A program made the position numbers and the translations under genes. From NCBI GenBank assembly GCA_015075005.1, contig JABTVC010000001.1, forward strand, positions 1,364,001 through 1,428,000: a stretch of DNA of 64,000 nt. Direction: 5' to 3'. The notes below the pieces were generated by a model. The model was given only the letters and a program-made list of their open reading frames with translations. It searched no databases and was not told the DNA's origin. The DNA is from Planctomycetia bacterium. GTDB lineage: Bacteria > Planctomycetota > Brocadiia > Brocadiales > Brocadiaceae. Positions 41,555 through 62,611 of the stretch are shown piece by piece; the first letter of the stretch is position 1; each line of letters opens with the position of its first letter.

Positions 41555-41587
41555 AGATGTTTTCAGTCGTTAACGGTTTCCGCCTGC

Positions 41588-43287: not shown

Positions 43288-43320
43288 TTTTGTCTCCCGG
43301 ATAATCTTGCGGATATAAAT

Positions 43321-44238: not shown

Positions 44239-44972
44239 TTCAAAAACCTATCCTTTAACACTTGAAATTCATCAATAGCCTGGGTGTAATCATCCGGTCG
44301 TCCGATGTCAAGCCAGTAACCGTCAAAATTCTTTATGCGGGGTGGGATTTTAGCCTTAATTAAATCCAGCATCAAATGATCAAATCCGTAAGGTTGACCT
44401 TCGGGAATATATTTTAAAATTTTATTACTTACCATATAAATACCCATGCTTACATCATATTTAAAGGTGGGTTTCTCTCGAAAACCATATAACCTGTTAG
44501 CAGTGTCGATTTCTAATACTCCATAATCTGCACGTTGTTTCCGTTGACAGGAAGAAATAGTAAACAGATGCCTGTGACTGACATGGTGTTCATAAAATGT
44601 GTTAAAATCTAAATCAGTGAGAATATCTCCATTCATGACCAAAAAATCAGACGGAAGGTTTCTGATTAACTTGAGTGGTCCCATAGTACTTAAAGGCCGA
44701 TCTTCAAAAGAATAATCAATAGTAATATTCCACTTTTCCCCGTTACCAAAAAAGGCTTTAATTATCTCAACCTGATGGTTTACACCCATGGTCAGATGGG
44801 TAAACCCATAATATGCTAATTGTCTCACAATAACTTCTAAGATAGGATAATCTCCTATTGGCATGAGGGGTTTTGGCAGGACAACCGTATACGGCCGCAG
44901 TCTTGTACCTTTACCGCCAGCAAGAATGACTGCTCTTTTAGACATAATAGATATCCACTTTGTACCAATCAA
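44235..44972 (-). CDS. Sugar-1-phosphate nucleotidyltransferase
   Basis: The 245-residue GT-A-like enzyme has AVILAGGKGTRLRPYTVVLP, L-V-M-N-G-D-I-L-T and F-D-G-Y-W-L-D-I-G-R. This is the signature of the RmlA/GlmU/HddC family; the order with a LegB-like dehydratase recalls the GDP-GlcNAc pyrophosphorylase step of legionaminic acid synthesis in Campylobacter. The nucleotide cannot be read directly. It overlaps both neighbours by 4 nt. It is distinct from the second nucleotidyltransferase at 46468 and has a different local partner. Confidence 0.82.
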   Translation of the reverse strand: MIGTKWISIMSKRAVILAGGKGTRLRPYTVVLPKPLMPIGDYPILEVIVRQLAYYGFTHLTMGVNHQVEIIKAFFGNGEKWNITIDYSFEDRPLSTMGPLKLIRNLPSDFLVMNGDILTDLDFNTFYEHHVSHRHLFTISSCQRKQRADYGVLEIDTANRLYGFREKPTFKYDVSMGIYMVSNKILKYIPEGQPYGFDHLMLDLIKAKIPPRIKNFDGYWLDIGRPDDYTQAIDEFQVLKDRFLK

Positions 44973-45967
44973 ACATTATAAATATGCCATTTGTACCTAC
45001 TAAGATATTCTTTGTTTTTGAACCACTCTACTGTCTTAAAAAGTCCTTCTTCTAGAGAGGTTTCTGACTCCCATCCGGTGAGCCTTTGTATTAAACTGTT
45101 ATCACATACCAGTCGACCTACCTCGCTTTTGTCAGGCCTTTTCCTTATGTTTTCAGAAGAAATTCTTACTCCTGGTTTTATTAATTTTACCAGTAAAGCC
45201 GCAATGTCGCCGATAGATATTTCCTGCCCTGACCCGATATTAATCGTTTTTCCAACAGTCTCATCGCATTTTGCCAGTGATATAAAGCCATTACAGATAT
45301 CGACAACGTAGTTTAAATCCCTTGTAGGATAAAGAGAACCAAGCTTTATTTCATTGCAGCCTTGTAAAAGTTGAATGATGATCGTTGGAATAACCGCCCT
45401 AGCAGACTGACGCGGGCCATACGTATTAAAAGGTCTTACTATTGTTACCGGCAAATCAAAAGACCTATAAAAACTCTCTGCCAGGTTATCAGCGCCAATC
45501 TTTGAGGCAGAATAGGGCGATTGTGGTTGAAGCGGATGCCTTTCATCAATAGGGACATACTGTGCTGTTCCATACACTTCAGATGTAGAGGTAATAAATA
45601 CTCTTTTAACATCGCAATCCCGGCATGCCTGTAAGATGTTTAAAGTGCCCTTTATATTCGTATCGATATATGAATCTGGTGAATGATAGGAGTAAGGAAT
45701 ACCAATTAAAGCCGCCAAATGAAAGACAATTTCTACCCCTTTCATCGCGTTTCTGACGTTATTCGGATCCCGAATATCACCAGCAAAAACTTCGACACCT
45801 TTTAGTATTTTATTTGGAAAAGTATCCAGCCAGCCCAACGAATTAAAGGAATTGTAAAGAACAAATGCCCTGATTTTCCCCTGTTCTTTCAGTAGTCGCT
45901 CCACAAGATGACTTCCGATAAAACCTTCAGAACCGGTAACGAGGATTTTTTTATTTCTTAATACCAT
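44969..45967 (-). CDS. LegB-like nucleotide-sugar 4,6-dehydratase
   Basis: The 332-residue SDR shows ILVTGSEGFIGSHLVERLL, ALIGIPYSYHSPDSYIDTN, FITSTSEVYGTAQYVPIDE, QSPYSASKIGADNLAESFYR and IVRPFNTYGPRQSARAVIPT. This run of motifs closely resembles LegB-type dehydratases (GDP-N-acetylglucosamine 4,6-dehydratase in legionaminic acid synthesis). It begins this subcluster, about 500 bp downstream of the heptose block. No clear LegC aminotransferase or LegH acetyltransferase gene is present, so the keto intermediate must be processed by the SDR at 43321 or by enzymes elsewhere. Confidence 0.82.
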   Translation of the reverse strand: MVLRNKKILVTGSEGFIGSHLVERLLKEQGKIRAFVLYNSFNSLGWLDTFPNKILKGVEVFAGDIRDPNNVRNAMKGVEIVFHLAALIGIPYSYHSPDSYIDTNIKGTLNILQACRDCDVKRVFITSTSEVYGTAQYVPIDERHPLQPQSPYSASKIGADNLAESFYRSFDLPVTIVRPFNTYGPRQSARAVIPTIIIQLLQGCNEIKLGSLYPTRDLNYVVDICNGFISLAKCDETVGKTINIGSGQEISIGDIAALLVKLIKPGVRISSENIRKRPDKSEVGRLVCDNSLIQRLTGWESETSLEEGLFKTVEWFKNKEYLSRYKWHIYNV

Positions 45968-46467: not shown

Positions 46468-47187
46468 TTATAATTTCAATGTATCAAGCAATCTTTTTGG
46501 TTCATTATTTAGATTTATATAGTCGTACGGCACTCCAATATCGACAAAGAATCCATTGACAATTATCCCATATAACCCCTGATTAACAAGAAAAGGCAGG
46601 ATTTCCTTCTCCAGGGAAACATTTCCGGAAGGAATACTCGTAAAAACTTCGCGACGAAAAATATATACCCCCCCGTTAATCAAAACATCTTTTTCCGTAC
46701 TCTTTTCCACAAATCTTACAACCTCCCCTTTTTCATTCCGTTCTACCCCGCCATAACGGCTTGTACCCTGCGTCTGTACCAGACTTATTGTAGCCTTTGC
46801 TTGCCGGGCATAGTGGGAAGAAACCAATTCATGGAAATCTACGTTTAGAAAAGTATCCCCATTCATCACCATGAACTCTTTACCATCAATACAGGTGAGT
46901 GATTGCCTTATGGCACCACCTGTTCCAAGGAGTTCTTTTTCTTCGGAATATCTGATATTAACCCCGAAATTTCTACCATTACCAAAATGCGCCTTAATCA
47001 CGTCACCCTTATAACCAATGGAAATAATTATTTCTTTCATTTTCCATCTAGCAAGCTGTAATACTAAATACTCCAAAAATGGCCTGCCTGCTATTGTGGC
47101 CATGGGTTTTGGTACATTTTTGATAACCTCTCTTAATCGTGTCCCCAAACCCCCGGCTAAAATGATGGCCTTCAATTGCCTAAGCAT
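46468..47187 (-). CDS. hddC: HddC-like heptose-1-phosphate guanylyltransferase
   Basis: The 239-residue enzyme has AIILAGGLGTRLREVIKNVP, K-P-M-A-T-I-A-G-R-P-F-L-E-Y, GTGGAIRQSL, FMVMNGDTFLNVDFHEL and G-F-F-V-D-I-G-V-P-Y-D-Y. These are hallmarks of HddC, which makes GDP-D-glycero-alpha-D-manno-heptose. The assignment is strengthened by the adjacent GHMP kinase (hddA) and the GMD-like dehydratase. It overlaps the stop of the PLP enzyme gene by 8 nt. The heptose isomerase and phosphatase (gmhA, gmhB) are absent and may lie elsewhere. Confidence 0.83.
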   Translation of the reverse strand: MLRQLKAIILAGGLGTRLREVIKNVPKPMATIAGRPFLEYLVLQLARWKMKEIIISIGYKGDVIKAHFGNGRNFGVNIRYSEEKELLGTGGAIRQSLTCIDGKEFMVMNGDTFLNVDFHELVSSHYARQAKATISLVQTQGTSRYGGVERNEKGEVVRFVEKSTEKDVLINGGVYIFRREVFTSIPSGNVSLEKEILPFLVNQGLYGIIVNGFFVDIGVPYDYINLNNEPKRLLDTLKL

Positions 47188-48379
47188 GATTTTGTAAAAA
47201 CTTCTCTATCGTGTTCAGTATAAAGTCGCATTCTTTCCTGCCCAGGTCCTGATGCACTCCTATGTGTATTCCGTTTTCACCAATATATTCTGCATTGGGA
47301 AAATCGCCAATTTTATGTCCTAAATAACCAAACCCGTGACACTGGGTAGGCATGGAGGAAAACAGGTTTCTCGTATCAATTCCGCTTTTCTCCAAATAAT
47401 TCACGAGTTGTGTCCTGGTAAATTTGGCCTTCTCCTGAATGATAATCGGGAGGGCATGAGGGCCTATCTCCTCATAGGTTTCTTTTCCGATGGTTACCAG
47501 GCAAGGTGCAAACCGTCCAAAATTTTCAATAAGATAATACATGTTCTCTCTTCTTTTGTTAAGGATGTCGTCATAAACTTCAAGATTTCCCAGGCCAACA
47601 GCCGCCTCCAGTTCATTCATCTTCGATGAAAAGCCGATTCTCTCAAAAATAAACCGTATGTCTTCATTTTCCCCATACCGGAACCTCTTTGCACAATAGG
47701 CAGAAGCGGTATTAAGAACGCAACTCTCACACTTGCACGCTCTTCCATGACTTCTCAAAGACCTCAATACCTCTGCAAAATCAGGGTTATTCGTAGTTAC
47801 GATCCCACCCTCTACCGTGGATATTATATGCGCTACATAAAGACTAAATGCCGCCATGTCTCCCAGCGCTCCTGCACTTTTACCCTTATATAAAGCCCCA
47901 TGGGCCTCGGCTGCATCTTCTATCACGATTAAATTATGCTTTTTTGCAATGTCGTTAATGGTATCCATTTCTGCGGGTTTGCCCATGAGATGTACGGGCA
48001 TTATGGCTCGTGTATTTGTTGTGATAACATCTTCTATCTTCACGGGGTCAATGTTCAGGGTCTTTCTGTCAACATCAACAAATATTGGCGTGAGGCCAGC
48101 CTGTAAAACCGCATTTCCGGTCGCTACAAAAGAAAGGGCTGGGATGACAACTTCATCTCCCCGTTTAGCGCCGTAATCGAGTAATACTGCTAGCGCCAAA
48201 GCGTCGGCATCAGTTCCAGAACCAAGCGCAACTGCTTCTTTTACGCCTACAAGCTCAGCAAACCTTTTTTCAAACTCTCTTACATACCTCCCGCTGGATA
48301 GCCTGTTTGACTGAAGGGCATGTTCTATTAATTCTTTGGACTTTTTTGTTACCGTTATCGTGCCAAATGGTATCTTCAC
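47180..48379 (-). CDS. PLP/[2Fe-2S] sugar 3-dehydrase-like enzyme (RfbH/E1 type)
   Basis: The 399-residue protein has the DegT/DnrJ fold: G-S-G-T-D-A-D-A-L, IPALSFVATGNAVLQAGLTP and I-E-D-A-A-E-A-H-G-A with Asp155 for the PLP ring. Where aminotransferases have the Schiff-base lysine, it reads F-S-L-Y-V-A-H-I-I-S-T-V-E-G-G, so His184 replaces Lys. This is the substitution found in the 3-dehydrases E1/RfbH and ColD. It also has C215-x-C217-x2-C220-x8-C229, matching the four-cysteine [2Fe-2S] site of the E1/RfbH group. I infer removal of the C3 hydroxyl of a nucleotide-linked 4-keto sugar. It lies between hddC and hddA, which points to a heptose substrate. No E3-type reductase is seen nearby. 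Confidence 0.78.
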   Translation of the reverse strand: MKIPFGTITVTKKSKELIEHALQSNRLSSGRYVREFEKRFAELVGVKEAVALGSGTDADALALAVLLDYGAKRGDEVVIPALSFVATGNAVLQAGLTPIFVDVDRKTLNIDPVKIEDVITTNTRAIMPVHLMGKPAEMDTINDIAKKHNLIVIEDAAEAHGALYKGKSAGALGDMAAFSLYVAHIISTVEGGIVTTNNPDFAEVLRSLRSHGRACKCESCVLNTASAYCAKRFRYGENEDIRFIFERIGFSSKMNELEAAVGLGNLEVYDDILNKRRENMYYLIENFGRFAPCLVTIGKETYEEIGPHALPIIIQEKAKFTRTQLVNYLEKSGIDTRNLFSSMPTQCHGFGYLGHKIGDFPNAEYIGENGIHIGVHQDLGRKECDFILNTIEKFLQNHA

Positions 48380-49377
48380 TTATACCTCATCTCTTAATTC
48401 TTCGCTATAATACACGATCCGACTTCCCGATGCCTCAAATCCGAAGGGGACATCCAGCAAGAAGCCCAACGTTTCCTTTAAACTCTCCCTGTCTTCGGGT
48501 TTAACAAAAACAAAACAAAACCACCACCACCAGCCCCAGGATCTTGCCGCCAATAGCTCCTGCCTTGCAGGCCATATCATAGACATGATCAATATGAGTA
48601 TTTGACACCTTATTCGACAAATTCTTTTTCAGCTGCCAGCTCTCATGAAGTAGTTTTCCAAAATCAGTAAGGTCACCATTGCCATTTAAGATAGTAATTG
48701 CTTCTTCGACCATGCTGCGCATGGTTTGAAGTTCGCTGACATTATTCTTTATCTTGGAAACTTGATCTTGAGCTATCTTTGAGGCAATCCGCGTAAAACC
48801 GGAAAAAAACAACATTAAATGGTTTTCCAAATTTTGCAATCTGTCCTGACTGATGGTTACCGGACTAATCTCGAAATGGTGCTCATTTGAAAATTCGATC
48901 TTATTCAAACCACCAAATGCGGCAATAATTTGATCCTGTGAACCTACATTTTCCTTTATCATCTCCTGCTCTATATGAATTGCATCGATCGCCAACTTTC
49001 TCTTTGATACCATTCTCCCTTCCTGGGCATACAATGCATGGAGTAACCCCACGGTGAACGACGAGCTCGAACCTATCCCTGATCTGGCTGGAAGATCCCC
49101 GTCATGGTGGATTTCCAGGCCCTCAGAAACATTCATAAATTTAAATGCTTCCCTAACAGATGGATGAATAATTTCATTCGTTTCATTGACCTGTTCAAAT
49201 TTTGAATATGCAATCCTGTGTTTATATTCAAAAAGGTGGGAGTTTTCTGCAACTTATGTAACAATATTTATCAATAGTAGTCGACAAAACAGCGCCGCCA
49301 TTTTCATGAAACCATGCCGGATAATCAGTTCCGCCACCAAAAAAAGAGATACGAAAGGGTGTCCTGCTGATAATCAT
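48380..49377 (-). pseudogene. hddA: HddA-like heptose 7-phosphate kinase, two frameshifts
   Basis: Reading from ATG 49377 (GGAGG about 8 nt upstream) gives [19 protein letters not shown], the GHMP-kinase start of HddA. It runs to L-P-P-F and a stop at a T5 run near 49238. The middle continues in another frame with [10 protein letters not shown], the kinase loop LPARSGIGSSSSFTVGLLHA and KIAQDQVSKI. The final part, G-A-G-G-G-G-F-V-L-F and K-P-E-D-R-E-S-L, needs another single-base correction at a G4 run near 48530. Both breaks sit at homopolymers, so they could be sequencing errors. The neighbours (hddC, dehydrase, GMD-like) argue for a real function. Confidence 0.75.
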
Positions 49378-49424
49378 CCTGGGGCCTCCATAAAATCAGG
49401 TAGTAACATTTGCCCTGTACCATG

Positions 49425-50372
49425 CTATAGTTTTTTTTGTATTCCTTCGTCCAAAGAAACTTGTGGATACCATCCCAGAGTATTCCTGGCCTTTGTTATA
49501 TCAAGACAAAGCCTGGTCTTGATCGTTGGTTTAAATGCATCATATTCAATAGTTATTTTCCTGCCAGAATGAGCGATTATCTTTTTAACAAGTTCATTTA
49601 CCGATATTGAGCTACCGTAGCCAACGTTAAAGATAGCGATATTTGTTTTCTGTTTATCAATCGCAAGCCTTACAAAATTCACAAGATCTGAGACATATAA
49701 AAGATCTCGCTCCTCTTCTCCATTGCCCCACACCGCGACTTTCTTATTTTTTTTTGCAGTCATAACCTTTGTTACCGTTGCACCTAAGACGTGGGATTTT
49801 TCTAAGTCATATTTGTCATACGGACCATAAATATTTGAATGTCGAATGACGGTATATTTGGTATTACCTATCCTGGAATAAAACTCACACATCTTTTCGA
49901 TATAAACTTTTGTCCATCCCACACCAAAATAGCTTGGGTACATCTCCTTATTTGGATCAAAGTCCGTTTCTTTTACCGGAATATCGCTTGATTGATACAT
50001 CACAGTACAGCTAAAGAATATGACATGTGATACCATATTTTCGTGTGCAGCCCTGAAGATAAGGGAGTTCATAACAGCGTTATCGGTAACGTGATAATAT
50101 GGCTTTGTAAGTATCTCCTTCGCTCCTGATGTTGTAGCCGCAGCCTGGATTATCATATCCATTCCCTTTATTACCCTGGTTACATCTTCTTTACAAGTAA
50201 GGTCGGCATGTAGCATCGTAATTTTGGGATACGGTAGCATCTTTGAATCAAAATATGTGCCGTAGACATCAAAGTCATCTCTTTTTATAAAGGTCTCAGC
50301 GATGTTTCTTCCGATGAATCCGGTGGCCCCGCATATCAAAACTTTTCTCTTACGCACTTTTCCAAACCTCAA
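49425..50372 (-). CDS. Extended SDR, fucose-synthase/epimerase-like
   Basis: The 315-residue SDR has VLICGATGFIGRNIAETF, MIIQAAATTSGAKEIL, F-S-C-T-V-M-Y (serine region), an active-site tyrosine in YFGVGWTKVYIEKMCEF (Y-x6-K spacing differs from the usual Y-x3-K) and VIRHSNIYGPYDKYDLEKSH. The K-S-H-V-L segment resembles GDP-fucose synthase. The Y-F-G-V-G-W-T-K arrangement is unusual and should be compared with the family. It lies next to hddA, so it could be the reductase or epimerase for a GDP-6-deoxy-4-keto-heptose. It overlaps the upstream SDR by 23 nt. Confidence 0.75.
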   Translation of the reverse strand: MRFGKVRKRKVLICGATGFIGRNIAETFIKRDDFDVYGTYFDSKMLPYPKITMLHADLTCKEDVTRVIKGMDMIIQAAATTSGAKEILTKPYYHVTDNAVMNSLIFRAAHENMVSHVIFFSCTVMYQSSDIPVKETDFDPNKEMYPSYFGVGWTKVYIEKMCEFYSRIGNTKYTVIRHSNIYGPYDKYDLEKSHVLGATVTKVMTAKKNKKVAVWGNGEEERDLLYVSDLVNFVRLAIDKQKTNIAIFNVGYGSSISVNELVKKIIAHSGRKITIEYDAFKPTIKTRLCLDITKARNTLGWYPQVSLDEGIQKKL

Positions 50373-51120
50373 TAAACTGATTAAGAATTTCTTTTGATGT
50401 TTTTTTAAACGTTGGAAATAATGCTGTTATCTTGTCATTTGATATAGTTCCAACATCATACAAATATTTCCCGAACAGAACTTTTTTTTTGAGTAATTTA
50501 GCTACTTCAGCAAGAAGGAGATTGTCTGTTGATGCCACATTGAATATACCCTTCGTGTCACTGTCTATTGAAAACGTAACGAATGCTAAGATGTCTGAAT
50601 GCAGCACATAGTTAAATTGTGAATTGTCAGAAAGAAATAATGGTTCTGTTACTTCTTCAATAATTTTCGTGAGTGTATTTCTTCTCGCATACTTGCCCAG
50701 AAGTGTTGTTGGCCTTAAGATGAGGAAATTGCGTCCTTTTCCTTTCACAATAGATTCTGATATAAGTTTGGTAATTGCATACATTCCCTTACTGGCATCT
50801 ATATGAATCAATTCATCTTCCCGATGAACCTCTGAATTCTTTGCGTATATGTCTACTGTTGAAAAATATATAAACTTCTTGTGAGGAATTGTCACTAATT
50901 CATGTGTAAACAATACGTTGTCGTTAAAATATTTATGAAGCGAATCAGAAGTAACCTCCTTTTCAGAATTAAAAGCACAATGGATAATGACATCCACACC
51001 GTCCCTTTTTATCTTCTCAAGTTCTTCTTCCGAAGTTGATCTGGTAATACCTGTTCCACCAAGATTCTCGTGAATGTATTTTCCTATACCGCTGACTACC
51101 CCTGTAGTAAGTACTCTCAC
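50350..51120 (-). CDS. Small SDR-like protein
   Basis: The 256-residue protein has an SDR-like start (VLTTGVVSGIGKYIHENL), a serine region (F-I-Y-F-S-T-V-D-I-Y) and Y-A-I-T-K with the Y-x3-K pair, then F-L-I-L-R-P-T-T-L-L-G. The second half is short, so the substrate-binding part is reduced. The start is a GTG at 51120 that touches the stop of a short upstream frame. The substrate is unknown. It probably acts with the neighbouring SDRs on keto-sugar intermediates. Confidence 0.65.
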   Translation of the reverse strand: MRVLTTGVVSGIGKYIHENLGGTGITRSTSEEELEKIKRDGVDVIIHCAFNSEKEVTSDSLHKYFNDNVLFTHELVTIPHKKFIYFSTVDIYAKNSEVHREDELIHIDASKGMYAITKLISESIVKGKGRNFLILRPTTLLGKYARRNTLTKIIEEVTEPLFLSDNSQFNYVLHSDILAFVTFSIDSDTKGIFNVASTDNLLLAEVAKLLKKKVLFGKYLYDVGTISNDKITALFPTFKKTSKEILNQFIEVWKSA

Positions 51121-51228
51121 ATCAATTCTCTGTTATCAACTGTCCATGCTGATTCAATCGCTCTCACTTGAACATAAATATTTGGCATCGTTAAAATCCC
51201 TGACGTTGATTCAAGCCAATAACCTGAT

Positions 51229-53259
51229 TTAAACAGTTTGAAATTCCTGATATGGAATGAGTTGCTTGCTACGGTAAAGATAAGCCCCTTTTTTGTTTCC
51301 ATACCAAATCACTTCTCTACACCAATCTTCCCAGGACGACCATGTAAATAATGAACGGTCAATGAGATAATTATATTTTCCCTTTTTAAGTGAGACTGAT
51401 TTTTCTTTTAGTGATGCCTGGTACATATCCCGGATGTTATATGATAATTCGACGGATATATCCTCTTTCTGGAACGGCAATTTCATCAAATTTTTATTAT
51501 AAAAGACTGCCTCATGCAATAGACGCTGAGGCAGGGACAAACCTTTTTTTCTAAGAAACCATTCAAGCTCTTTTTCTGCTTCTGCATAGAAAAGATCCAG
51601 CTTGTTTTTCGTACACAATTTAATTAATAGTAATTCATCGGCAGGCCACCAAATATTGAGCCATTCTTTGGATTCACAATACTCTGCCCCTCCATGTTGA
51701 ATGTCGAAGGCTTTATCAATAAAATATTTGTTTATCTCAGAAATAATCGGTAACGTCGCCTCTTTTGTAAAAATCTCGATTAAATCCTTAAATCGGATCG
51801 ATAATATGGCGTGCAGAATAGTTAAGGGTATTTGCAAGACCTTGTTAAAGTACAGGAAAGAAGTCATCCAGCTGAAAACCCTGGCTTTGACCCAATCTTC
51901 TGTGGGCATGGTATTCGTTCCGACAACGAGCTGTTGAGTTTCATATATTTCGTCAGTATCATCGAGGCTTCCATGAATGTTAATGATCTTCGTTTCACGG
52001 ATAACAAAATCATATTTTTTTTGATATTCAGGGTTACCCATCTCTGCATTTGGAAGCAGGGACAGGTTATTAAACTGTATCCTGTTATGCTGACCTTTTT
52101 CAATTACCGAGGATACACCATCGGTAAAGGTCTTGTATGTCTCTTCAGGCAAGGCTAAAATAATATCAGTATAAGTTTCCACATTGTCGGTAGTAAATTT
52201 ATGCTGAAGTTTTTGAAAGACATTGGTAGATATATTGTGACGGTTTATACTCTTTAAGGTATCGTTATTCATAGATTGAAGGGAAAGCGTTACCCCTTTA
52301 TTCAGGCCAGCATCAGACAGTATCTTTTGTATCTTATACGAACGTTCTGTGGAATTTTTTGTGTTTTGCACTGATAACGCCTTTGGATAGCCATACTTCT
52401 TTTTGTTCTCAGCTACGTATTTAACAATCTCAATGTCCCTTTTCAGTATCCCAAAGTTGGCATCGCAACAATAAATATACTCAATTTTGCGCTCACTAAA
52501 CCAATCGATTTCTTCAAATATTCTTTCGAGATCATAGGTGTAGACTTTGGCACGAGTAGCTGCTCCCCAGTCACAATACGAGCAGGAAAATGGGCAACCC
52601 CTGTTTGTTTCCCACAGTGCAATCCATTGTTCTTCAGGATGCATCTCCATCAGGCGATCAAATATTCCTGCAAGATAGGGAGAAGGAATTGTGTGCAGGT
52701 TTGAAATCCTCTCACATCTGGAATTTTGAATAAGTTTATCATTTTTGTTGATATAACTTATGGAGGGTACTTTTTCCCAATCCCCAGTATTGCAATTTTC
52801 CAAAATATTCAAAAAGGGAATTTCCCCTTCGCCGTGGCAGACAATATCTACAAAAGGATGATTTCGTAAAAACGGTTCCACGCTATTCGGAACCTGCATA
52901 CCACCAAAAACAATAATCGTATCGGGTCTCCTTTGCTTTACCTGCCTTGCTATTTCGAGAGATATCCTTATATTCCAAACATACGTACTGAAGAATACCA
53001 TATCTGCATGGAGCAGCCTTTCTACCGCTGCTTTAACTGGAATACGCTTGTAAATCGGCAACAAGAACTCAAATTTATTTATATCTTTATGATATCTTTG
53101 CGAATATACCTGGAGAAAACCAAGTGCGTAGGGAAGATAGTTCTGTCCGGAAAAGCTATTGTTTATCTGAACCATTCCCAGCTTTATTGTGTCGTGTGAA
53201 TATTTGCCAACATTCCTCATGTCATGTGTAATGTTTTCTGTGAGACAAACCGTTTTCAT
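51229..53259 (-). CDS. Cobalamin-binding-type radical SAM enzyme
   Basis: The 676-residue protein has an N-terminal B12-binding-like half (LPYALGFLQVYSQRYHKDIN, PDTIIVFGGMQVPNSVEPFL, D-I-V-C-H-G-E-G-E-I-P-F-L), a radical SAM core with LWETNRGCPFSCSYCDWGAA (C-x3-C-x2-C) and a long C-terminal part ending near W-C-R-E-V-I-W-Y-G-N-K-K-G. No specific function can be read. The gene sits between the SDRs of the heptose block, which suggests it acts on a sugar or a lipid-linked sugar. With three other radical SAM genes in the island it is part of an unusual concentration. Confidence 0.82.
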   Translation of the reverse strand: MKTVCLTENITHDMRNVGKYSHDTIKLGMVQINNSFSGQNYLPYALGFLQVYSQRYHKDINKFEFLLPIYKRIPVKAAVERLLHADMVFFSTYVWNIRISLEIARQVKQRRPDTIIVFGGMQVPNSVEPFLRNHPFVDIVCHGEGEIPFLNILENCNTGDWEKVPSISYINKNDKLIQNSRCERISNLHTIPSPYLAGIFDRLMEMHPEEQWIALWETNRGCPFSCSYCDWGAATRAKVYTYDLERIFEEIDWFSERKIEYIYCCDANFGILKRDIEIVKYVAENKKKYGYPKALSVQNTKNSTERSYKIQKILSDAGLNKGVTLSLQSMNNDTLKSINRHNISTNVFQKLQHKFTTDNVETYTDIILALPEETYKTFTDGVSSVIEKGQHNRIQFNNLSLLPNAEMGNPEYQKKYDFVIRETKIINIHGSLDDTDEIYETQQLVVGTNTMPTEDWVKARVFSWMTSFLYFNKVLQIPLTILHAILSIRFKDLIEIFTKEATLPIISEINKYFIDKAFDIQHGGAEYCESKEWLNIWWPADELLLIKLCTKNKLDLFYAEAEKELEWFLRKKGLSLPQRLLHEAVFYNKNLMKLPFQKEDISVELSYNIRDMYQASLKEKSVSLKKGKYNYLIDRSLFTWSSWEDWCREVIWYGNKKGAYLYRSKQLIPYQEFQTV

Positions 53260-53271
53260 TTTAGTATACCA

Positions 53272-54267
53272 TCAGGAGATGAGTGCTTTTTCATGAAATA
53301 CATTATGATGTTGAGATAATTTATCCCTGTTTTCCTGATACCATTCAATGGTTTTGCCAATTCCTTCCTTCAGAGATATCCTGGGATTGTATCCTATTTT
53401 CCCCCTGGCCCTTGTTATATCAAGCACCCTCATGTCCTCACCGACCGGTTTTTCTTTATCCCACCGGACATTTAATCCCGGAATATAGGATGTTATAATA
53501 TCTATAAGTTCCTTAATGGTGGTCCCCATGCCGGAACCGAGGTTTATTGGAATACAATCGGCAGCCTTTTCAAATGCCAATAGCACCCCCTCAGCCACAT
53601 CATCGACAAAAACAAAATCCCGGACTGCAGAGCCATCTCCCCATACAGTAAAAGGGTCTTCCTTTTTTACCGCACGACCGATTAAGGCGGGAATAACCAT
53701 TGCGGATGAGGGATCAAAGTAATCAAAAGGGCCATACACGTTGGCTGGTCTAACAATTGCAATCTTACTCCATCCGAATTCAATTTTGTAACTCTCTGCC
53801 TGAAGTTCTCCCATCCTTTTAGCCCAGCCTGCGAACAGGTTCGTGTGGTGGGGGGGACCATTCCATGCAATGTCTTCTTTCTTAGGTTCATTTGCAGAAG
53901 GATAGATACCAATAGTGCTCGTATAGAGATACCTTTCAACGTCCCATACTCTTGAGGCCTCCATCAGAAATGTGTTAAAAATGAGATGAGGGACAAAAAA
54001 GCTGGCCGCCTTGGCTTTTCCGGTAGAAACAGCCCCTTTTGTCCCGGCGAGGTTAAAGACGTAATCCATTCCCTTTACTACTCTATTACAAAACTGCCAG
54101 TTCGTTAAATTACCACTGATAAATTCTGCTTCAGGATGTGCCAACGCAGCATCATCTAAAGAGACGACCCGAACCTTCGCTCCGCGCTCAATGAGCATTT
54201 TCACAACGGGTATGCCAATCAGGCCTGTTCCGCCGGCTACCAGTACCTTTTTCCCCTTATACATCAA
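53272..54267 (-). CDS. Extended SDR, GDP-fucose-synthase-like
   Basis: The 331-residue SDR has VLVAGGTGLIGIPVVKMLIE, VFNLAGTKGAVSTGK, TSTIGIYPSANEPKKEDIAW and IAIVRPANVYGPFDYFDPSS. It ends in the ISLKEGIGKTIEWYQENRDK tail of nucleotide-sugar epimerases. It appears intact, with FAGWAKRMGELQAE in place of the usual Y-x3-K: the tyrosine is missing, and W-A-K is found instead. This makes normal dehydrogenase chemistry doubtful unless another residue substitutes. It follows the GMD-like gene by 11 nt in the same operon, so a role in processing the product of that dehydratase is likely. Confidence 0.7.
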   Translation of the reverse strand: MMYKGKKVLVAGGTGLIGIPVVKMLIERGAKVRVVSLDDAALAHPEAEFISGNLTNWQFCNRVVKGMDYVFNLAGTKGAVSTGKAKAASFFVPHLIFNTFLMEASRVWDVERYLYTSTIGIYPSANEPKKEDIAWNGPPHHTNLFAGWAKRMGELQAESYKIEFGWSKIAIVRPANVYGPFDYFDPSSAMVIPALIGRAVKKEDPFTVWGDGSAVRDFVFVDDVAEGVLLAFEKAADCIPINLGSGMGTTIKELIDIITSYIPGLNVRWDKEKPVGEDMRVLDITRARGKIGYNPRISLKEGIGKTIEWYQENRDKLSQHHNVFHEKALIS

Positions 54268-54278
54268 TTCTTCCTTTA

Positions 54279-55271
54279 TTATTTTTCAACCGTAAGTGCC
54301 TTCCACGGGCAACGGGAAAGTTCATCTCTCCAGTAATCCAGTATGTCATTGAGAGTTTTTGCCAGCTGTATCTCGGGCTTCCATCCGGTTTCTTTGCTGA
54401 ATTTTTCAGTAGAGGGAATCTGAAGTGTTACATCCGAAGGCCTCAAAAGATTGGGATCAACCTTTACTTCACATTTTATTTTCGAAAATGAAAGCATTTT
54501 TTCCAATGCCTCCCCAATAGTCAGTGTCGTATCACCGCCAATATTATATACCTCCCCGGGCCTGCACTTGTTCACTAAAAGCCAGTAGGCCTTTACGGCA
54601 TCTCTGACATCACAGAATGTCCTGATAGATTTCAAGTTACCCACATGTATAACAGGTTCTTTGATACCCAGTTCAGCGGCGGCAATTTGTTTCCCAAAAA
54701 ACGACATTGCAAAGACATCGCCTCTCCTGGGGCCTGTATGGGTAAACATCCTTGTCCGAATTGTTTTAATTCTGTAAGAAACCCAGTATTGATAAGCAAC
54801 CATATCCTCGCCTACCTTACTCACGGCATAGGGAGAGGCAGGTCTAAAGGGGCAGGATTCCTTGATGGGGACTTCTTCCTCTGAAACCTGTCCATAGACC
54901 TCAGAGGAAGAACAAATATGGATGACAGGATTGATCTCGGAAAGTCGAACAGCCTCAAGCAGATTTGTTGTGCCAATAACGTTTGTCCAGAGGGTCTGTA
55001 CAGGGGTATTAAAGCTGGTCAAAACGTAACTTTGCGCTGCCAGGTGAAAGATGATGTCAGGCCTGATCATCTTAAAATGCCGTAACAACCCGCTCAGGTC
55101 ACAAAGGTCAGCCTCAACCATTTTTATTTTGTTATAAATTGTAGCCAGATTATCTTTCGGGCTTCTCCACCTGCACAGACCGAAGATTTCGTGTCCCTCT
55201 TTCAGGTTAAGGAGGTATTCTGCAAGGTGACTGCCTACAAAGCCCGTTATGCCAGTAATCATAATTTTCAT
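54279..55271 (-). CDS. GDP-mannose/GDP-heptose 4,6-dehydratase-like
   Basis: The 330-residue protein matches the GMD subfamily: MITGITGFVGSHLAEYLL, FHLAAQSYVLTSFNTPVQTL, ICSSSEVYGQVSEEEVPIKE, ASPYAVSKVGEDMVAYQYW (Y-x3-K) and RMFTHTGPRRGDVFAMSFFG, then LRPSDVTLQIPSTEKFSKET. It differs from the gmd at 19650, lacking the [10 protein letters not shown] loop variant of that protein, and lies in the heptose block with hddA and hddC. A GDP-heptose 4,6-dehydratase (DmhA-type) is therefore a good guess, but GDP-mannose cannot be excluded by sequence. Confidence 0.78.
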   Translation of the reverse strand: MKIMITGITGFVGSHLAEYLLNLKEGHEIFGLCRWRSPKDNLATIYNKIKMVEADLCDLSGLLRHFKMIRPDIIFHLAAQSYVLTSFNTPVQTLWTNVIGTTNLLEAVRLSEINPVIHICSSSEVYGQVSEEEVPIKESCPFRPASPYAVSKVGEDMVAYQYWVSYRIKTIRTRMFTHTGPRRGDVFAMSFFGKQIAAAELGIKEPVIHVGNLKSIRTFCDVRDAVKAYWLLVNKCRPGEVYNIGGDTTLTIGEALEKMLSFSKIKCEVKVDPNLLRPSDVTLQIPSTEKFSKETGWKPEIQLAKTLNDILDYWRDELSRCPWKALTVEK

Positions 55272-55405
55272 ACTATGATATCTCCATCAAGTTGTATTAC
55301 TTCGTAAAGATTCCTTTTTCTGAAAGTCTTACCATCTCTTCTTTTATCCCCTTCTTCGCAAGGAGAGATTTGTCTTTGTGAACATCTTAGCAGTGTGAAG
55401 GTTAA

Positions 55406-56449
55406 TCAAAATGGCCCCTTGAACTCTACTTCCTCGGCTTGTAATTCGGTGATAGGTTGCCATGCCTTTTTGTCTGAAAATATCATTTGGTATGCATTGA
55501 GTGCGATTTCTTTTGCATCAGGATAAAAATGTTGTTCAAGTGCGGAAGTTGTTGGACATGGAACAGATGCAAATCCCATTCTTTTTATTACCACGTCTCT
55601 GGGTATATTTCTTTCAATAAGTTGGGCTACTATCTCAGCGCCTGCCCCACACGTCATCCATGCATAATCTATTACTATAAGCATCTTTGTCTTTACTACC
55701 GAATCCAGAATTGTATTGATATCCAAAGGGCTAAGGGATAACGGGTCTATGACCTCTGCATCTATATGAATTTCTTTCAAGTATTGCCGCGCTCTTAAAC
55801 ACTCAATAGCCATTTGTGAAATCCCAACCAGGGTAATGTCTTTCCCTTTTGCGAGAATTCTCGCCTTCCCTAAAGGTACGGTATAGCCCTCGGTTGGCAC
55901 ATGACCCCGTTGATAATAAAGGAGTCTGTGTTCTATGAACAGCACAGGGTTATTGTCGCGAATGCCCTGTATCAAACATCCTTTAGCATCATATGGTGTC
56001 GAAGGAGCACATATTTTGAGACCGGGAATATTCATAAACAACGGATAAATACTTTGTGAATGTTGAGCCCCTTGTCCCCAACTCTTACCAATGATAGAGC
56101 GAACAACTATGGGAATGGAAACTTCTCCTCCAAACATATACCGCATTTTTGCTGCCATATTGATAAGCTGGTTCATGGCTAGCAACACGAAATCCATTCT
56201 TATATGCGTATGTACCGGCCTTAAACCAGCAAGTGCAGCGCCTATTGCAACTCCTGTCATACCGTCTTCTGCCAGCGGAGTATCAAATACTCTTTCACTG
56301 CCAAATTTATCTACAAGTCCTTTTGTAGTTCCTAAAATACCCTTAGGGTCATCTACACCTTGGCCCAAGACTATTACTGACGGATTTTGGGTCATTTCTT
56401 GCACAATAGCTTCCCTTATTGCTTCTGAATAACTTAAAATCCGCTGCAT
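55406..56449 (-). CDS. TPP-dependent dehydrogenase E1 beta subunit
   Basis: The 347-residue protein has the transketolase-like central fold of E1 beta subunits: ILSYSEAIREAIVQEMTQNP, FDTPLAEDGMTGVAIGAALA, RPVHTHIRMDFVLLAMNQLI, W-G-Q-G-A-Q-H-S-Q-S, IDPLSLSPLDINTILDSVVK and VIDYAWMTCGAGAEIVAQLI. It pairs with the alpha subunit directly upstream. No E2 (dihydrolipoamide acyltransferase) or E3 gene is nearby, and the locus is a glycan cluster. I therefore infer that the pair transfers a two-carbon unit from pyruvate to a keto-sugar or other acceptor rather than acting in central metabolism. Confidence 0.83.
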   Translation of the reverse strand: MQRILSYSEAIREAIVQEMTQNPSVIVLGQGVDDPKGILGTTKGLVDKFGSERVFDTPLAEDGMTGVAIGAALAGLRPVHTHIRMDFVLLAMNQLINMAAKMRYMFGGEVSIPIVVRSIIGKSWGQGAQHSQSIYPLFMNIPGLKICAPSTPYDAKGCLIQGIRDNNPVLFIEHRLLYYQRGHVPTEGYTVPLGKARILAKGKDITLVGISQMAIECLRARQYLKEIHIDAEVIDPLSLSPLDINTILDSVVKTKMLIVIDYAWMTCGAGAEIVAQLIERNIPRDVVIKRMGFASVPCPTTSALEQHFYPDAKEIALNAYQMIFSDKKAWQPITELQAEEVEFKGPF

Positions 56450-56452
56450 CTG

Positions 56453-57394
56453 TTAGTCCTTAAAGAGATCAGTATACAGTTCCTTTACCTCAGGGAAATC
56501 GCTTTTCTCTGCAAATTCAAAGGCGTTTTTAGTCTCCAGATCAACTGCAGATTCGATTTTGCTTGAAATATCAGCACCTAAGAGAGATTTCAATTTTTTT
56601 AGCTGATCATTTTGTATCCAATATTCAGCTTCGTCCTTGGTTCGGTATCCTAAATGGAAATCATCGTTAGGGCCAACATGTTCTTTCCATCGGTATGTAA
56701 TGCATTCGAGAAATACAGGCGCTATGTGTCCCATCATAATCCGCTTGATATAGTTATTAGTAAAATCGTATATCCTGAATATATCTCCGTCATCTATGCA
56801 TTCTGCCTGCATGCCATAAGTCTGTACCCGCTCACAGATATTATCAGAATTACGACGGCTTACATGGTGAGAATGTATTGCATAGTGGTTATTTTCACAA
56901 ACAAACAAGATTGGCAATCTTTTCAAAGCAGCGAAATTCACACCTTCATGAAATGCCCCTTCATCAACTGCGCCGTCACCAATAAAGCACACGACGATGG
57001 AGTTAGATTTTCTGTACTTTAGTGCATAGGAATAACCAACAGAAACGGGAATTGTTGTCCCAACGATTGCGGAAGTACCCATGACTCCCTTTGCGACATC
57101 GATGAGGTGCATTGATCCACCCTTACCTTTTGAGCACCCGGTTGATTTCCCATAGAGTTCTGCAATCATCTTTTCTAGATTTCCCCCCTTTGCAAGGTAC
57201 GTTGCGTGACCTCTATAAGTCCCAAATACTATATCATCTGGTCTTAGTGCTTCGCAGACACCCACAGAAATTGCTTCCTGGCCAATTGACAAGTGAACAG
57301 GACTTTTAATTTTATCGGTATGATAAATTCTTGCTATTTCCTCTTCAATCCTGCGAATACGGTATAGTGATCTGTAAAATTTCTCTGCTAACAT
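56453..57394 (-). CDS. TPP-dependent dehydrogenase E1 alpha subunit
   Basis: The protein (ATG at 57394, 313 residues) has the TPP-binding motif: GDGAVDEGAFHEGVNFAALK with E-N-N after about 27 residues, plus GTYRGHATYLAKGG, G-K-G-G-S-M-H-L-I-D and H-S-H-H-V-S-R-R. These are typical of acetoin and branched-chain E1 alpha subunits. The stop lies 3 nt before the E1 beta start, so subunits are coupled. Use of the ATG avoids an overlap with the TPR gene that the longer TTG frame would create. Its place between the GMD-like gene and flagellar genes is unusual for an E1. Confidence 0.83.
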   Translation of the reverse strand: MLAEKFYRSLYRIRRIEEEIARIYHTDKIKSPVHLSIGQEAISVGVCEALRPDDIVFGTYRGHATYLAKGGNLEKMIAELYGKSTGCSKGKGGSMHLIDVAKGVMGTSAIVGTTIPVSVGYSYALKYRKSNSIVVCFIGDGAVDEGAFHEGVNFAALKRLPILFVCENNHYAIHSHHVSRRNSDNICERVQTYGMQAECIDDGDIFRIYDFTNNYIKRIMMGHIAPVFLECITYRWKEHVGPNDDFHLGYRTKDEAEYWIQNDQLKKLKSLLGADISSKIESAVDLETKNAFEFAEKSDFPEVKELYTDLFKD

Positions 57395-57407
57395 ATGAAA
57401 CTGAATT

Positions 57408-58532
57408 CTAATCAATTATAAGACTAACCCGTTTAGGTAAACGAGACAATTGGGGCAGCCTGGATAGTTCATCCTTTATGTCTTTTTGTTGAGGTTGTAT
57501 ATCTAAAGATTTTTCCCAAATGCTCCGTGCCTTCGTTAGGTTTTTCTCCATTTTATAACAGTGTCCCAGCATATTATAAAGCAATACCAGGGTGTCATTA
57601 TTCGTTTGAGTATTATCTGACCATAGTGCGTTGATCGTATCGGAAGCTTCTTTGGTTTTCATAAATTCTTCCAGAGCATAAATGGCATTCGCATATTTTT
57701 TTTGTTTATAGTAAAGATAACCAAGATTATAAAATGCCTCTATGTACGAACTATCGAGTTTGGCAGCCATGGAAAAGAAAGTTTCTGCCTGCTTATCCAT
57801 ACCTGATTCGATACAACATTCACCCAACAGGTTGTAAGCATCTGTATTATTTTTATCTTTGAGCACTGTTTCCCTCAGATAAAACATTGCCCTGATATAC
57901 TTCTTTTGCATTTTATATATAATTCCAAGAAGAAAATTGACTTCGGAAATAGAGGGATCCCCCATGTGTATATACAAAAGTATATTTTTAGCCTTTGTAT
58001 AATCGTTTTTTTTGATTAATAGTTTACAAAGGTATATGGCTGAAGATATATATTCGGGTTTTAACCGATGTGACTCTGAAAAAAACGATTCGGCTTCTTT
58101 TTCCATATTACTATGGATGCAGCATATTCCCATGAGATAATAAGTTTCATAGTCGTCAGGATTTGCTATGACAACCTCTTTAAGGTGTGGAAGTGCCGTG
58201 GTGTATTCCTTCCGTTCCATATATAAGAAAGCGAGATTATAATGTGCTTCTGTCAAACCAAAATCTTTTTGCAATGCCTTCTTAAAGTTATCAATCGCCT
58301 CTGCATACTTTTCCATTCTGGTGTAATAAATTCCAAGATGATTGTACCCTTGTGCATAATCGGGATTCATCTCAACAGCAGCCTTTAAATATTGATACGC
58401 ACCATCCCAGTTACCTTTTTCAATCGCGGTGTTTGCAAGGGCTATTTCAGTTTCATAATCATTATGATCACGAATAAGACCATCATATAGTGAAACTGCA
58501 TTTAATGAATTATTATTCGTTATCTTGAGCAT
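57408..58532 (-). CDS. TPR-repeat protein
   Basis: The 374-residue protein is a near-continuous tetratricopeptide array of about nine repeats with the typical A/G-x-x-x-x-L-G pattern (GYNHLGIYYTRMEKYAEAID, AFYNLGYLYYKQKKYANAIY and others). No signal peptide or enzymatic domain is seen. It lies between csrA and the E1 alpha/beta pair, so it may serve as an assembly or acceptor-binding scaffold for the glycosyltransferases that carry their own TPRs. Alternatively it is a general chaperone-like adaptor; the function is open. Confidence 0.78.
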   Translation of the reverse strand: MLKITNNNSLNAVSLYDGLIRDHNDYETEIALANTAIEKGNWDGAYQYLKAAVEMNPDYAQGYNHLGIYYTRMEKYAEAIDNFKKALQKDFGLTEAHYNLAFLYMERKEYTTALPHLKEVVIANPDDYETYYLMGICCIHSNMEKEAESFFSESHRLKPEYISSAIYLCKLLIKKNDYTKAKNILLYIHMGDPSISEVNFLLGIIYKMQKKYIRAMFYLRETVLKDKNNTDAYNLLGECCIESGMDKQAETFFSMAAKLDSSYIEAFYNLGYLYYKQKKYANAIYALEEFMKTKEASDTINALWSDNTQTNNDTLVLLYNMLGHCYKMEKNLTKARSIWEKSLDIQPQQKDIKDELSRLPQLSRLPKRVSLIID

Positions 58533-58555: not shown

Positions 58556-58831
58556 TTACAAAAAAGAAATCATTTCTCTTTCTTTTAAATCCGTTTTTCC
58601 CCCGGTTTTTTGCATAGTTTTGACAACTTCCAGCAGGGCATTTTTCGATACCGTTACCGCTTTTTTATTTTCTTCCTGAATCTTTTCAAAAATCTCTTCC
58701 CTATGCACCTTAACATGCCTTGGTGCAATGATACCCAGTTTGACCTGTTTGCCCTGACATTCTAAAACGGTAATTTTTATTTCTTCGCCAATGGTAATAC
58801 TTTCTCCTAACTTCCGTGTCAGTATAAGCAC
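58556..58831 (-). CDS. csrA: Carbon storage regulator, RNA-binding translational repressor
   Basis: The protein is 91 residues, with the compact CsrA core [18 protein letters not shown] and the following strands [13 protein letters not shown]. The helix [12 protein letters not shown] is complete, so RNA binding through the conserved R and V residues is expected. A 30-residue tail beyond the core ([10 protein letters not shown]) is longer than in E. coli. The start is GTG at 58831 with AAGGTGAG about 8 nt upstream. CsrA typically represses flagellin translation and is antagonised by FliW; the gene for that partner lies 40 nt upstream. Confidence 0.93.
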
Positions 58832-58870
58832 GATATCTCACCTTTCTGAAAATTCTGAAAATATTGTATA

Positions 58871-59338
58871 CTATGCCCTAACAAGAGGATGATGTAAGTT
58901 ATAATAGTCTTCGGTTAATACGAATTGTTTTCCTGTCTTATTTTTCATATTGATAAGTATGGGACCTTTAAGATTTATAGTAACGTCTGTCGGACTATTG
59001 CCCAGGGTAACCGTACAAAACACTTCGACATTTTTCGCATCCTTGATCCCTAGTGATAATAAGTCGCCTATTGACTCCGCCGGATTATAGTCAGTAAAGA
59101 AAGGCATGGGGTTAAGAATAGGAAAAGCCACAGAAGGGTCTTTTACAGAAACCAGCCATTCGAAAGGAAGACACTCATCAATATCAATTATGACAAATTG
59201 TTTTAAATCCTCGAAGCCTAACATGCCATTTTCAAAGGTTAAGATATTTTCTTTTGCGATACGCAAATTACCAAATTTCTCTGTTGACAAATTCACTGTA
59301 TTGCCTTTTTCTTTTTGTTGTTTTTCCATTTTTATCAT
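58871..59338 (-). CDS. fliW: Flagellar assembly factor FliW
   Basis: The 155-residue protein shows the FliW pattern: ILTFENGMLGFEDLKQFVII, FEWLVSVKDPSVAFPILNP, and a C-terminal L-K-G-P-I-L-I-N-M-K-N-K-T-G-K-Q. FliW binds CsrA allosterically and flagellin, coupling flagellin synthesis to filament assembly. The ATG at 59338 has AGGAG about 8 nt upstream. The pair fliW-csrA downstream of flgK-flgL is a common arrangement, here followed by the glycan island, so filament assembly and glycosylation genes may be co-expressed. About 270 bp of AT-rich DNA without a gene separates it from flgL. Confidence 0.93.
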   Translation of the reverse strand: MIKMEKQQKEKGNTVNLSTEKFGNLRIAKENILTFENGMLGFEDLKQFVIIDIDECLPFEWLVSVKDPSVAFPILNPMPFFTDYNPAESIGDLLSLGIKDAKNVEVFCTVTLGNSPTDVTINLKGPILINMKNKTGKQFVLTEDYYNLHHPLVRA

Positions 59339-59611
59339 ATGCTTGCTCCTTTTTTAAAAGATTTATCTGGTATAGTCTTGCTAATATTTCTAGCAAGCAC
59401 CATACCATGAACACATGCAATGCTGAACTTTAAAACAACAAAATCCTATAATATTTCAAAGTTGATAGTTAACGATATTTTCTGTTTCATGAATATTCCT
59501 TAAAATAAATCTTTAGAAAGGCATGTGAGGAAATTTTCTCCCAGGCAGGTATTTATCGTGGAATTGTTGGATACAATTTCTTAACAAATAATGATTAATA
59601 TTTATACATTA

Positions 59612-60523: not shown

Positions 60524-60566
60524 AGTTTAATCCTCCATAATTCATTATGTAGCCGCGGAAACGTAT

Positions 60567-60625
60567 TCAGACATCAGCAATCAGCTGAATATTGTATAAT
60601 TGTTAATGGCTGATGGCTATACGCC
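60567..60625. repeat. Low-complexity hairpin repeat between flgK and flgL
   Basis: Units such as CATCAGCAATCAGCTGAA and GGCTGATGGCTATACGCCTG give partly complementary arms around an AT-rich loop. The style (drifting short units) matches the in-frame repeats in the glycosyltransferase and fcl genes. It could form a weak terminator on the minus strand. Confidence 0.45.
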
Positions 60626-60636
60626 TGATGAATACA

Positions 60637-62599: not shown

Positions 62600-62611
62600 G
62601 TGTACCCCTCC

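Follow-up and report, generated by a model that had tools for sequence, protein, structure and literature searches.

A putative heptose gene block in the window

The window analysed here, a stretch of 64,000 nucleotides from contig JABTVC010000001.1 of the Planctomycetia bacterium assembly GCA_015075005.1, carries a block of sugar nucleotide genes that may specify a branched 3,6-dideoxyheptose. The block lies on the minus strand, its genes running from 58532 to 46468, downstream of flagellar genes and of a gene for a tetratricopeptide repeat (TPR) protein. From the flagellar side, the gene order is E1alpha and E1beta (subunits of a thiamine diphosphate, TPP, enzyme), a GMD-like dehydratase, a short-chain dehydrogenase/reductase (SDR), a B12-binding radical S-adenosylmethionine (SAM) enzyme, two more SDRs, hddA, a pyridoxal phosphate (PLP) enzyme in which His replaces Lys (His-type PLP enzyme) and hddC. 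All the parts named in a first-pass annotation of this DNA were found in place on the minus strand, three SDRs among them; its gene list was right in what it described and had missed the B12 radical SAM enzyme and two frame changes in hddA.

46468–47187, minus strand: hddC-like sugar-1-phosphate guanylyltransferase; best NCBIfam match HddC NF049965, 188 bits, cut-off 300
47180–48379, minus strand: DegT-fold PLP enzyme with His184 for Lys; best NCBIfam match RfbH, 268 bits, cut-off 423
48383–49386, minus strand: hddA-like heptose kinase with two frame changes; longest open piece 48501–49136
49425–50372, minus strand: Fcl-like SDR with FGVGWTK, lacking the Tyr normally found four residues ahead of Lys; 3' end in another frame
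50350–51120, minus strand: SDR with YAITK, candidate ketoreductase; Epimerase family, residues read from sequence
51229–53259, minus strand: B12-binding radical SAM enzyme of 676 aa, TokK/CysS/KedN5-like; KedN5 NCBIfam model 284 bits, cut-off 700
53272–54267, minus strand: Fcl-like SDR without the usual Tyr (FAGWAK); homologues in loci L058 (52%) and L036 (59%)
54279–55271, minus strand: GDP-heptose 4,6-dehydratase-like (GMD-like) protein; best PDB sequence match 7us5
55406–56449, minus strand: E1beta-like TPP subunit, Transket_pyr and Transketolase_C domains; 295 bits to the pyruvate dehydrogenase (PDH) E1beta model, cut-off 321
56453–57415 (ATG at 57394), minus strand: E1alpha-like TPP subunit of a non-PDH ('glycan') group, E1_dh domain; 295 bits to the PDH E1alpha model, cut-off 394
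57408–58532, minus strand: TPR protein, next gene upstream, in the same position in both syntenic congeners
58559–62611, minus strand: csrA-, fliW-, flgL- and flgK-like genes, the upstream flagellar context; names from sequence reading, flgK frame-shifted

The window genome comprises 3.9 Mb in 22 contigs and is 93% complete. It encodes hydrazine synthase alpha, a family missing from all 14 control genomes, and an identical E1alpha is shared by a Candidatus Brocadiaceae contig (L066) and the genome G037, which belongs to the same order. From these two observations we infer an anammox host within the Brocadiales. The hydrazine synthase alpha family has two matches in the window genome, at G000:C1:203955 and G000:C1:1064798, with equal score and frame length. 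A search of related genomes for the same block, proposed in the first-pass annotation, found the E1alpha-to-hddC run syntenic in 2 of 10 congeners (G005 and G009), with protein identities of 79–96%. Given this synteny, and given that parts of the block recur together in other phyla, the block appears to be more than a chance assembly.

The annotated GDP-heptose genes and GMD-like 4,6-dehydratase are indeed present in the block, with family scores under the cut-offs and with hddA broken by frame changes. The best match was of the heptose type for hddA and hddC (NCBIfam, under cut-offs) and for the dehydratase (PDB sequences). The GMD-like protein scored 274 bits against 7us5, a GDP-D-glycero-D-manno-heptose 4,6-dehydratase, 223 bits against GDP-6-deoxy-D-lyxo-4-hexulose reductase and 142 bits against GDP-mannose 4,6-dehydratase, the last of these families also being its best NCBIfam match, under the cut-off. 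Because the hddA, hddC and GMD matches fall below curated NCBIfam cut-offs, the substrate is proposed rather than assigned. The HddA model is a weak test, with matches in 11 of the 14 control genomes, and gene neighbourhood together with blastp against an intact homologue was therefore used instead; in further loci, too, the hddC-like gene has hddA and the 3-dehydratase gene in its vicinity. Genes resembling gmhA, gmhB and hldE occur together on contig C12 (gmhB and hldE named from sequence reading).

The hddA gene is a single open frame in G005 and G009. In tblastn searches onto the window hddA, the G005 homologue (L033) matched in two frames and the G009 homologue (L034) in three; the intact L033 protein has HddA NF049969 as its best match (166 bits, cut-off 600). 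Compared with both congeners, the flgK-like gene (60637–62611) is likewise interrupted by a frame change, and the SDR at 49425–50372 runs on in another frame at its 3' end after an A run, so that assembly errors seem a likelier cause of the hddA breaks than decay. A true hddA pseudogene was provisionally set aside since flgK is also split.

The PLP enzyme carries His184 within SLYVAHIISTVEGG and four cysteines in the pattern C215-x-C217-x2-C220-x8-C229, and is probably a GDP-4-keto-6-deoxyheptose 3-dehydratase, as judged from sequence. The first-pass annotation had called it an E1/RfbH-like 3-dehydrase; His184 and the four-cysteine motif are as it described, and the cysteine pattern differs from the E1 set. 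In the E1 3-dehydrase, this set is one distant Cys plus C-x-C-x7-C. It is absent from the window enzyme, whose cysteines lie at 215, 217, 220, 229, 293, 347 and 384, with none near 157. ColD and E1 (DdhC/RfbH) share with the window enzyme the DegT fold and the His for Lys, and it is not clearly nearer to either: PDB sequence scores were 214 bits for perosamine synthetase, 194 for E1 dehydrase and 175 for ColD, and a Foldseek search with its model placed GDP-perosamine synthase, E1 and ColD alike among the top matches. Measured against the ColD type (His for Lys, no Fe-S cluster, a GDP-sugar), it has the His and an additional Cys motif. An aminotransferase, the alternative raised at the first reading, is not suggested by residue 184. 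The four cysteines are conserved in all eight window-type PLP proteins examined. The AlphaFold2 model has a pLDDT (predicted local distance difference test) score of 89, dropping under 50 at residues 216–232, which include three of the four cysteines, and is thus uninformative on cluster binding. The E3-type ferredoxin reductase that the annotation proposed to look for was not recovered, there being no FAD_binding_6 (PF00970) match in the 93%-complete genome, a search that other reductase families would escape.

The radical SAM enzyme scored 339 bits against 7kdx (TokK) and 233 bits against CysS among PDB sequences. TokK and CysS are C-methyltransferases, and the window enzyme is a candidate for the same activity. 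Near homologues of both Fcl-like SDRs (49425–50372 and 53272–54267) likewise lack the Tyr before Lys.

The E1 pair and its gene neighbourhoods

The E1alpha and E1beta genes are adjacent, and neither an E2 nor an E3 gene was recognized in the block, in agreement with the first-pass annotation. The pair does not fit the PDH or branched-chain 2-oxoacid dehydrogenase type, as its scores are under the curated cut-offs and no E2 was seen beside it. A separate PDH-type E1alpha/E1beta pair is encoded with E2 and lipA/lipB-like genes on contig C17 of the same genome (E2 and lip names from sequence reading).

Relatives were collected in an E1alpha profile scan of one genome collection, from which the best 80 of 586 confirmed relatives were taken; of the matches from another search, only those in 18 of 20 regions entered the tree. 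The resulting tree of 101 rows, based on E1alpha only, rooted for drawing only and with a bootstrap that had not settled, splits at 100/99 into 54 rows that include the window and 47 PDH/Aco-type rows that include the other E1alpha of the host. Within the former, the window belongs to an 18-row subclade (96/89) from Planctomycetota, Myxococcota, Alpha- and Gammaproteobacteria and Omnitrophota. The pair from a Streptomyces locus with an RfbH-type gene (L073) also falls in the 54-row group. The loop H-[VCA]-G is present in all 53 printed E1alpha rows of this group versus 1 of 47 PDH-type rows (L117). In PDH-type E1alpha, the loop after the conserved His carries phosphorylated serines in some species. 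On a plasmid of Streptomyces griseofuscus, an E1 pair with an HVGP loop (L143:11917–13963) lies beside condensation-domain and ketosynthase-type genes; it comes from six records of a plasmid collection, two of them Streptomyces, and three of the six were looked at.

Gene neighbourhoods were compared across 17 subclade loci, 35 other loci of the group and 45 PDH-type loci, with L066 (same sequence as L036), L101 and L045 (partial E1alpha) and the window itself kept outside this table. With the E2 of the host as query and at least 100 bits required, an E2 gene was found near none of the 52 loci of the window's group versus 32 of the 45 PDH-type loci. An hddA gene (at least 150 bits) was near 12 of the 17 loci of the subclade, against 1 of the 35 others in the group and none of the 45 PDH-type loci; the corresponding counts were 8, 0 and 0 for hddC and 13, 1 (L073) and 0 for a His-type PLP gene. 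Without the two congeners, hddA was near 10 and a His-type PLP gene near 11 of 15 subclade loci. The genomes of all four subclade loci with no such PLP gene nearby (L061, L065, L078 and L084) encode a His-type PLP enzyme elsewhere, beside hddA in those of L065 and L078, and in the genome of L101, a locus that did not enter the tree, a second contig has genes for E1beta, a His-type PLP enzyme, a GMD-like protein and hddA in a row.

The cysteine motif of the PLP enzyme is found in the window, L033, L034 and L071, and is absent from the other 10 of 14 subclade PLP proteins (L041, with 48% identity, and nine with 26–31%), in which the His is present, as in ColD. As read from these sequences, the putative 3-dehydratase is itself exchanged between Cys-motif and motif-less types within the subclade.

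Two-subunit TPP enzymes beside hddA

A second test started from hddA instead of E1alpha. Intact hddA gave 42 matches in 147 genomes (that of the host included), which were split at a gap between 363 and 280 bits into 23 window-type and 19 distant hddA loci; 12 of the 23 had been viewed before the test was set. A two-subunit TPP enzyme was encoded near 18 of the 23 window-type versus 2 of the 19 distant loci (Fisher 1.2e-5), where flanks end at contig ends, the window-type loci without a TPP pair include four stubs of 3.1–9.4 kb (L206, L210, L218 and L223) and several distant loci are short (L225, L230 and L238, under 5 kb). A His-type PLP gene was near 15 of the 23 versus none of the 19 (Fisher 7.7e-6). 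Common descent of the loci and the use of the best 80 of 586 relatives mean that these Fisher values are overstated. Among the 11 fresh window-type loci, a TPP pair was found near eight (p 0.001) and a His-type PLP gene near four (p 0.012).

The 18 TPP enzymes are of several kinds. Four have an E1alpha of the window subclade (window, G005, G009 and G078), one is an E1 pair outside the tree (G062), two are of a second E1 type (G002 and G008) and 11 are split transketolases; at the thresholds used, two kinds never occurred at one locus. Within one genus, the hddA-hddC-PLP core is paired with the window-type E1 (window, G005 and G009), with the second-type E1 (G002 and G008) or with transketolase (G001). 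TPP enzymes replacing each other in one slot are the pattern expected of a conserved two-carbon transfer.

The second E1-like pair, in congeners G002 and G008, is distinct from that of the window (L202:2982–4765; 30%/27% to the window pair), and its locus also has hddA, hddC, a His-type PLP gene, a B12 radical SAM gene and an Fcl-like SDR gene. At L209:7476–13974 and L214:5529–11710, genes for an Fcl-like SDR, a B12 radical SAM enzyme, split transketolase, hddA, hddC and a His-type PLP enzyme form a compact co-directional cassette. All six kinds of gene also occur at L216 in G020, whose genome, from the family of the host, is a single contig of 4.4 Mb.

A proposed branched dideoxyheptose and its alternatives

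Taken together, the tree group, the loop, the lack of a nearby E2 and the co-occurrence with hddA and His-type PLP genes favour a two-carbon branch on a GDP-4-keto-3,6-dideoxyheptose. We put the chance that the block makes a C2-branched 3,6-dideoxyheptose as a GDP derivative, probably for flagellin, at slightly better than even (roughly 0.55). In this pathway, products of the gmhA- and gmhB-like genes on C12, with HddA and HddC, would supply GDP-D-glycero-D-manno-heptose, which the GMD-like enzyme would convert to a 6-deoxy-4-keto sugar, and the His-type PLP enzyme would take off the 3-hydroxyl. E1alpha/E1beta would then decarboxylate pyruvate on TPP and add the two-carbon unit to the C4 ketone, not to a lipoyl-E2, yielding a 4-C-acetyl sugar whose branch might be reduced by an SDR; C-methylation of the product may fall to the B12 radical SAM enzyme. 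Substrate and order of steps are modelled on the enzyme families and on the yersiniose and Campylobacter jejuni pathways. For the order already put forward at the first reading, the comparisons support GDP-heptose input, 4,6-dehydration, His-type 3-dehydration and then a TPP enzyme; activity, substrate and sequence of steps remain predictions by homology and analogy. A wider claim, which we hold tentatively and at somewhat less than even odds, is that surface proteins in several phyla, and repeatedly among anammox bacteria and relatives of theirs, receive 3,6-dideoxyheptoses that carry a C2 branch (nine carbons) and perhaps a C-methyl group, all from one pathway. Within one genus, the branching enzyme would then have been exchanged among three two-subunit TPP enzymes, two E1 types and a split transketolase, to give different branches on the same heptose core.

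Several observations weigh against a branched heptose. The hddA gene is broken in this assembly, and none of the matches to HddA, HddC, GMD, RfbH and PDH models reaches its curated cut-off. Several loci have Fcl-like SDR genes near E1alpha; these would point to reduction at C4, which conflicts with a C4 branch unless the SDRs act on the branch or at C5. At L071, a lipoyl-domain-like open reading frame (ORF; L071:2–1776) that the E2 query missed lies beside an E1beta fragment, about 8 kb from the E1 pair. No His-type PLP gene was seen near 34 of the 35 other group loci, and the L143 pair shares the loop and adjoins polyketide-type genes in a stretch where no sugar gene was seen. Among the window-type hddA loci, L220 (G122), a full 19.9 kb, has neither a TPP pair nor a His-type PLP gene; G004, G030 and G031 (a 4.5-kb stub) have transketolase without a His-type PLP gene; G062 has an E1 pair without one, its E1alpha being outside the tree and not showing the usual loop pattern; and three congeners keep hddA-hddC-PLP without the window-type E1. 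Split transketolase beside hddA could also simply supply sedoheptulose 7-phosphate.

This last point belongs to an unbranched 3,6-dideoxyheptose as in C. jejuni, with the TPP enzymes serving precursor or acyl supply (sedoheptulose 7-phosphate in the case of split transketolase) or another sugar of the island, which we regard as unlikely but a genuine contender. C. jejuni HS:5 and HS:11 are described as making GDP-3,6-dideoxyheptoses (PMC10440746), split transketolase abuts hddA in several loci, Fcl-like SDRs, possible C4 reducers, are encoded near 15 of the 23 window-type hddA loci, and the island holds another, nonulosonate-like gene run at 40.6–46.0 kb. Supply of sedoheptulose 7-phosphate does not explain the E1 types, since E1-type pairs are not expected from general family knowledge to make this compound, nor does it explain the distant-hddA controls (TPP pairs at 2 of 19 against 18 of 23 window-type loci, where the kinds never co-occur); moreover, a DegT gene directly follows E1alpha-E1beta in several alphaproteobacterial and planctomycete loci. 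TPP-dependent branching of another acceptor (a hexose, other keto-sugar or assembled oligosaccharide) seems to us quite improbable. It would fit the sub-cut-off hddA, hddC and GMD matches, two Azospirillum plasmid loci with E1alpha-E1beta-DegT and no annotated hddA in the stretch, and the avilamycin and paulomycin branches, for which addition after glycosyl transfer has been proposed (PMC4425429). It sits poorly with the match of the GMD-like protein, whose closest relative among PDB sequences is a GDP-heptose dehydratase (7us5), and with the enrichment of hddA in the window's E1alpha subclade; one of the Azospirillum loci (L144) also encodes a protein matching the GmhB and HddC models, under their cut-offs.

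That the pair is an ordinary 2-oxoacid dehydrogenase E1, placed here by chance and using the lipoyl-E2 of the genome's PDH set, is very unlikely. Both subunits do carry E1/transketolase domains, an E2-like gene exists on C17 and L071 has its lipoyl-domain-like ORF, but the tree group, the loop motif and the negative E2 query in 52 of 52 neighbourhoods speak otherwise, and the genome has a separate E1 pair adjoining the C17 E2. We give hardly any credence to the pair being the electron source of the Cys-motif PLP enzyme, oxidizing pyruvate on TPP and reducing a putative Fe-S cluster in place of E3. The lack of a FAD_binding_6 match in the genome and the conservation of the Cys motif in all eight window-type PLP proteins examined would be in line with such a role; however, 10 of the 14 subclade PLP partners have no Cys motif, G001 pairs a Cys-motif PLP enzyme with transketolase and a ferredoxin could serve instead.

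The branched-heptose pathway proposed here has close parallels. The yersiniose pathway follows a similar order (4,6-dehydratase, 3-dehydrase, TPP-dependent C2 addition at C4), acting on CDP-3,6-dideoxy-4-keto-glucose with YerE (PMC4753412, PMC12247030); YerE is described as a single TPP-dependent flavoprotein working on a CDP-hexose, unlike the E1alpha/E1beta pair and putative GDP-heptose of the window. The C. jejuni HS:5/HS:11 pathway shares with our proposal GDP-heptose, 4,6-dehydratase and PLP C3-dehydratase, whereas the four enzymes described for it (4,6-dehydratase, PLP C3-dehydratase, epimerase and C4-reductase) include no TPP or radical SAM enzyme (PMC10440746). The first-pass annotation saw in an E1-type enzyme a novel type of branching catalyst, which is not supported: for AviB1/B2, Pau11/12, KbDH-alpha/beta and the aldgamycin pair, all of E1 type, addition of a C2 branch to a keto-sugar has already been proposed or shown. 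Such pairs, termed alphaKADH2, are reported with about 120 gene clusters (PMC12247030); branching by KbDH-alpha/beta is reported in vitro on sugar analogues (PMC12247030, PMC4753412), and inactivation of pau11 is stated to abolish paulomycins (PMC4425429). The four named pairs resemble that of the window in their E1alpha/E1beta architecture and in the C2 branch on a keto-sugar proposed here, a likeness drawn from their descriptions, and differ in coming from actinobacterial antibiotic clusters. The window shows gene-context traits of the alphaKADH2 type, namely adjacent E1alpha/E1beta, no E2/E3 beside them and NDP-sugar 4,6-dehydratase and deoxygenation genes nearby. Hydroxyacetyl (two-carbon) branching has been proposed for the split transketolases of miharamycin and amipurimycin, divided into TKN and TKC as in 11 sister loci; the 13 sequences given are all from Streptomycetes and described as unproven in vitro (PMC12247030).

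Every chemical step has a precedent or a proposal, and what appears new is their union on GDP-heptose: in the open-licence PMC literature (titles and starts of abstracts), we did not find this combination in surface-glycan islands of several phyla, nor the interchange of TPP enzymes. Related gene sets in sister species and other phyla point to a more widespread and so far undescribed way of making branched surface sugars. If so, sugar branching of the E1 and transketolase types would extend from actinobacterial antibiotic clusters to surface glycans of other phyla, with a heptose added to the scaffolds and enzymes on offer for making tertiary alcohols.

Glycan residues of anammox bacteria that are still unexplained could also be tested against the masses that the proposal predicts. 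The surface-layer (S-layer) glycan of Kuenenia stuttgartiensis is reported to contain a 174.09-Da residue (PMC5088730). A methyl-3,6-dideoxyheptose and a yersiniose-type residue are both C8H14O4 (174.0892) and isobaric with it, and nothing here ties the residue to these genes; if G020 were a Kuenenia, the residue would be worth another look. The nonulosonate-like run mentioned above follows the block at 40589–45967 of the window and comprises NeuB-, CMP-sugar synthetase- and PseG-like genes, a nucleotidyltransferase gene and SDR genes, named from sequence reading.

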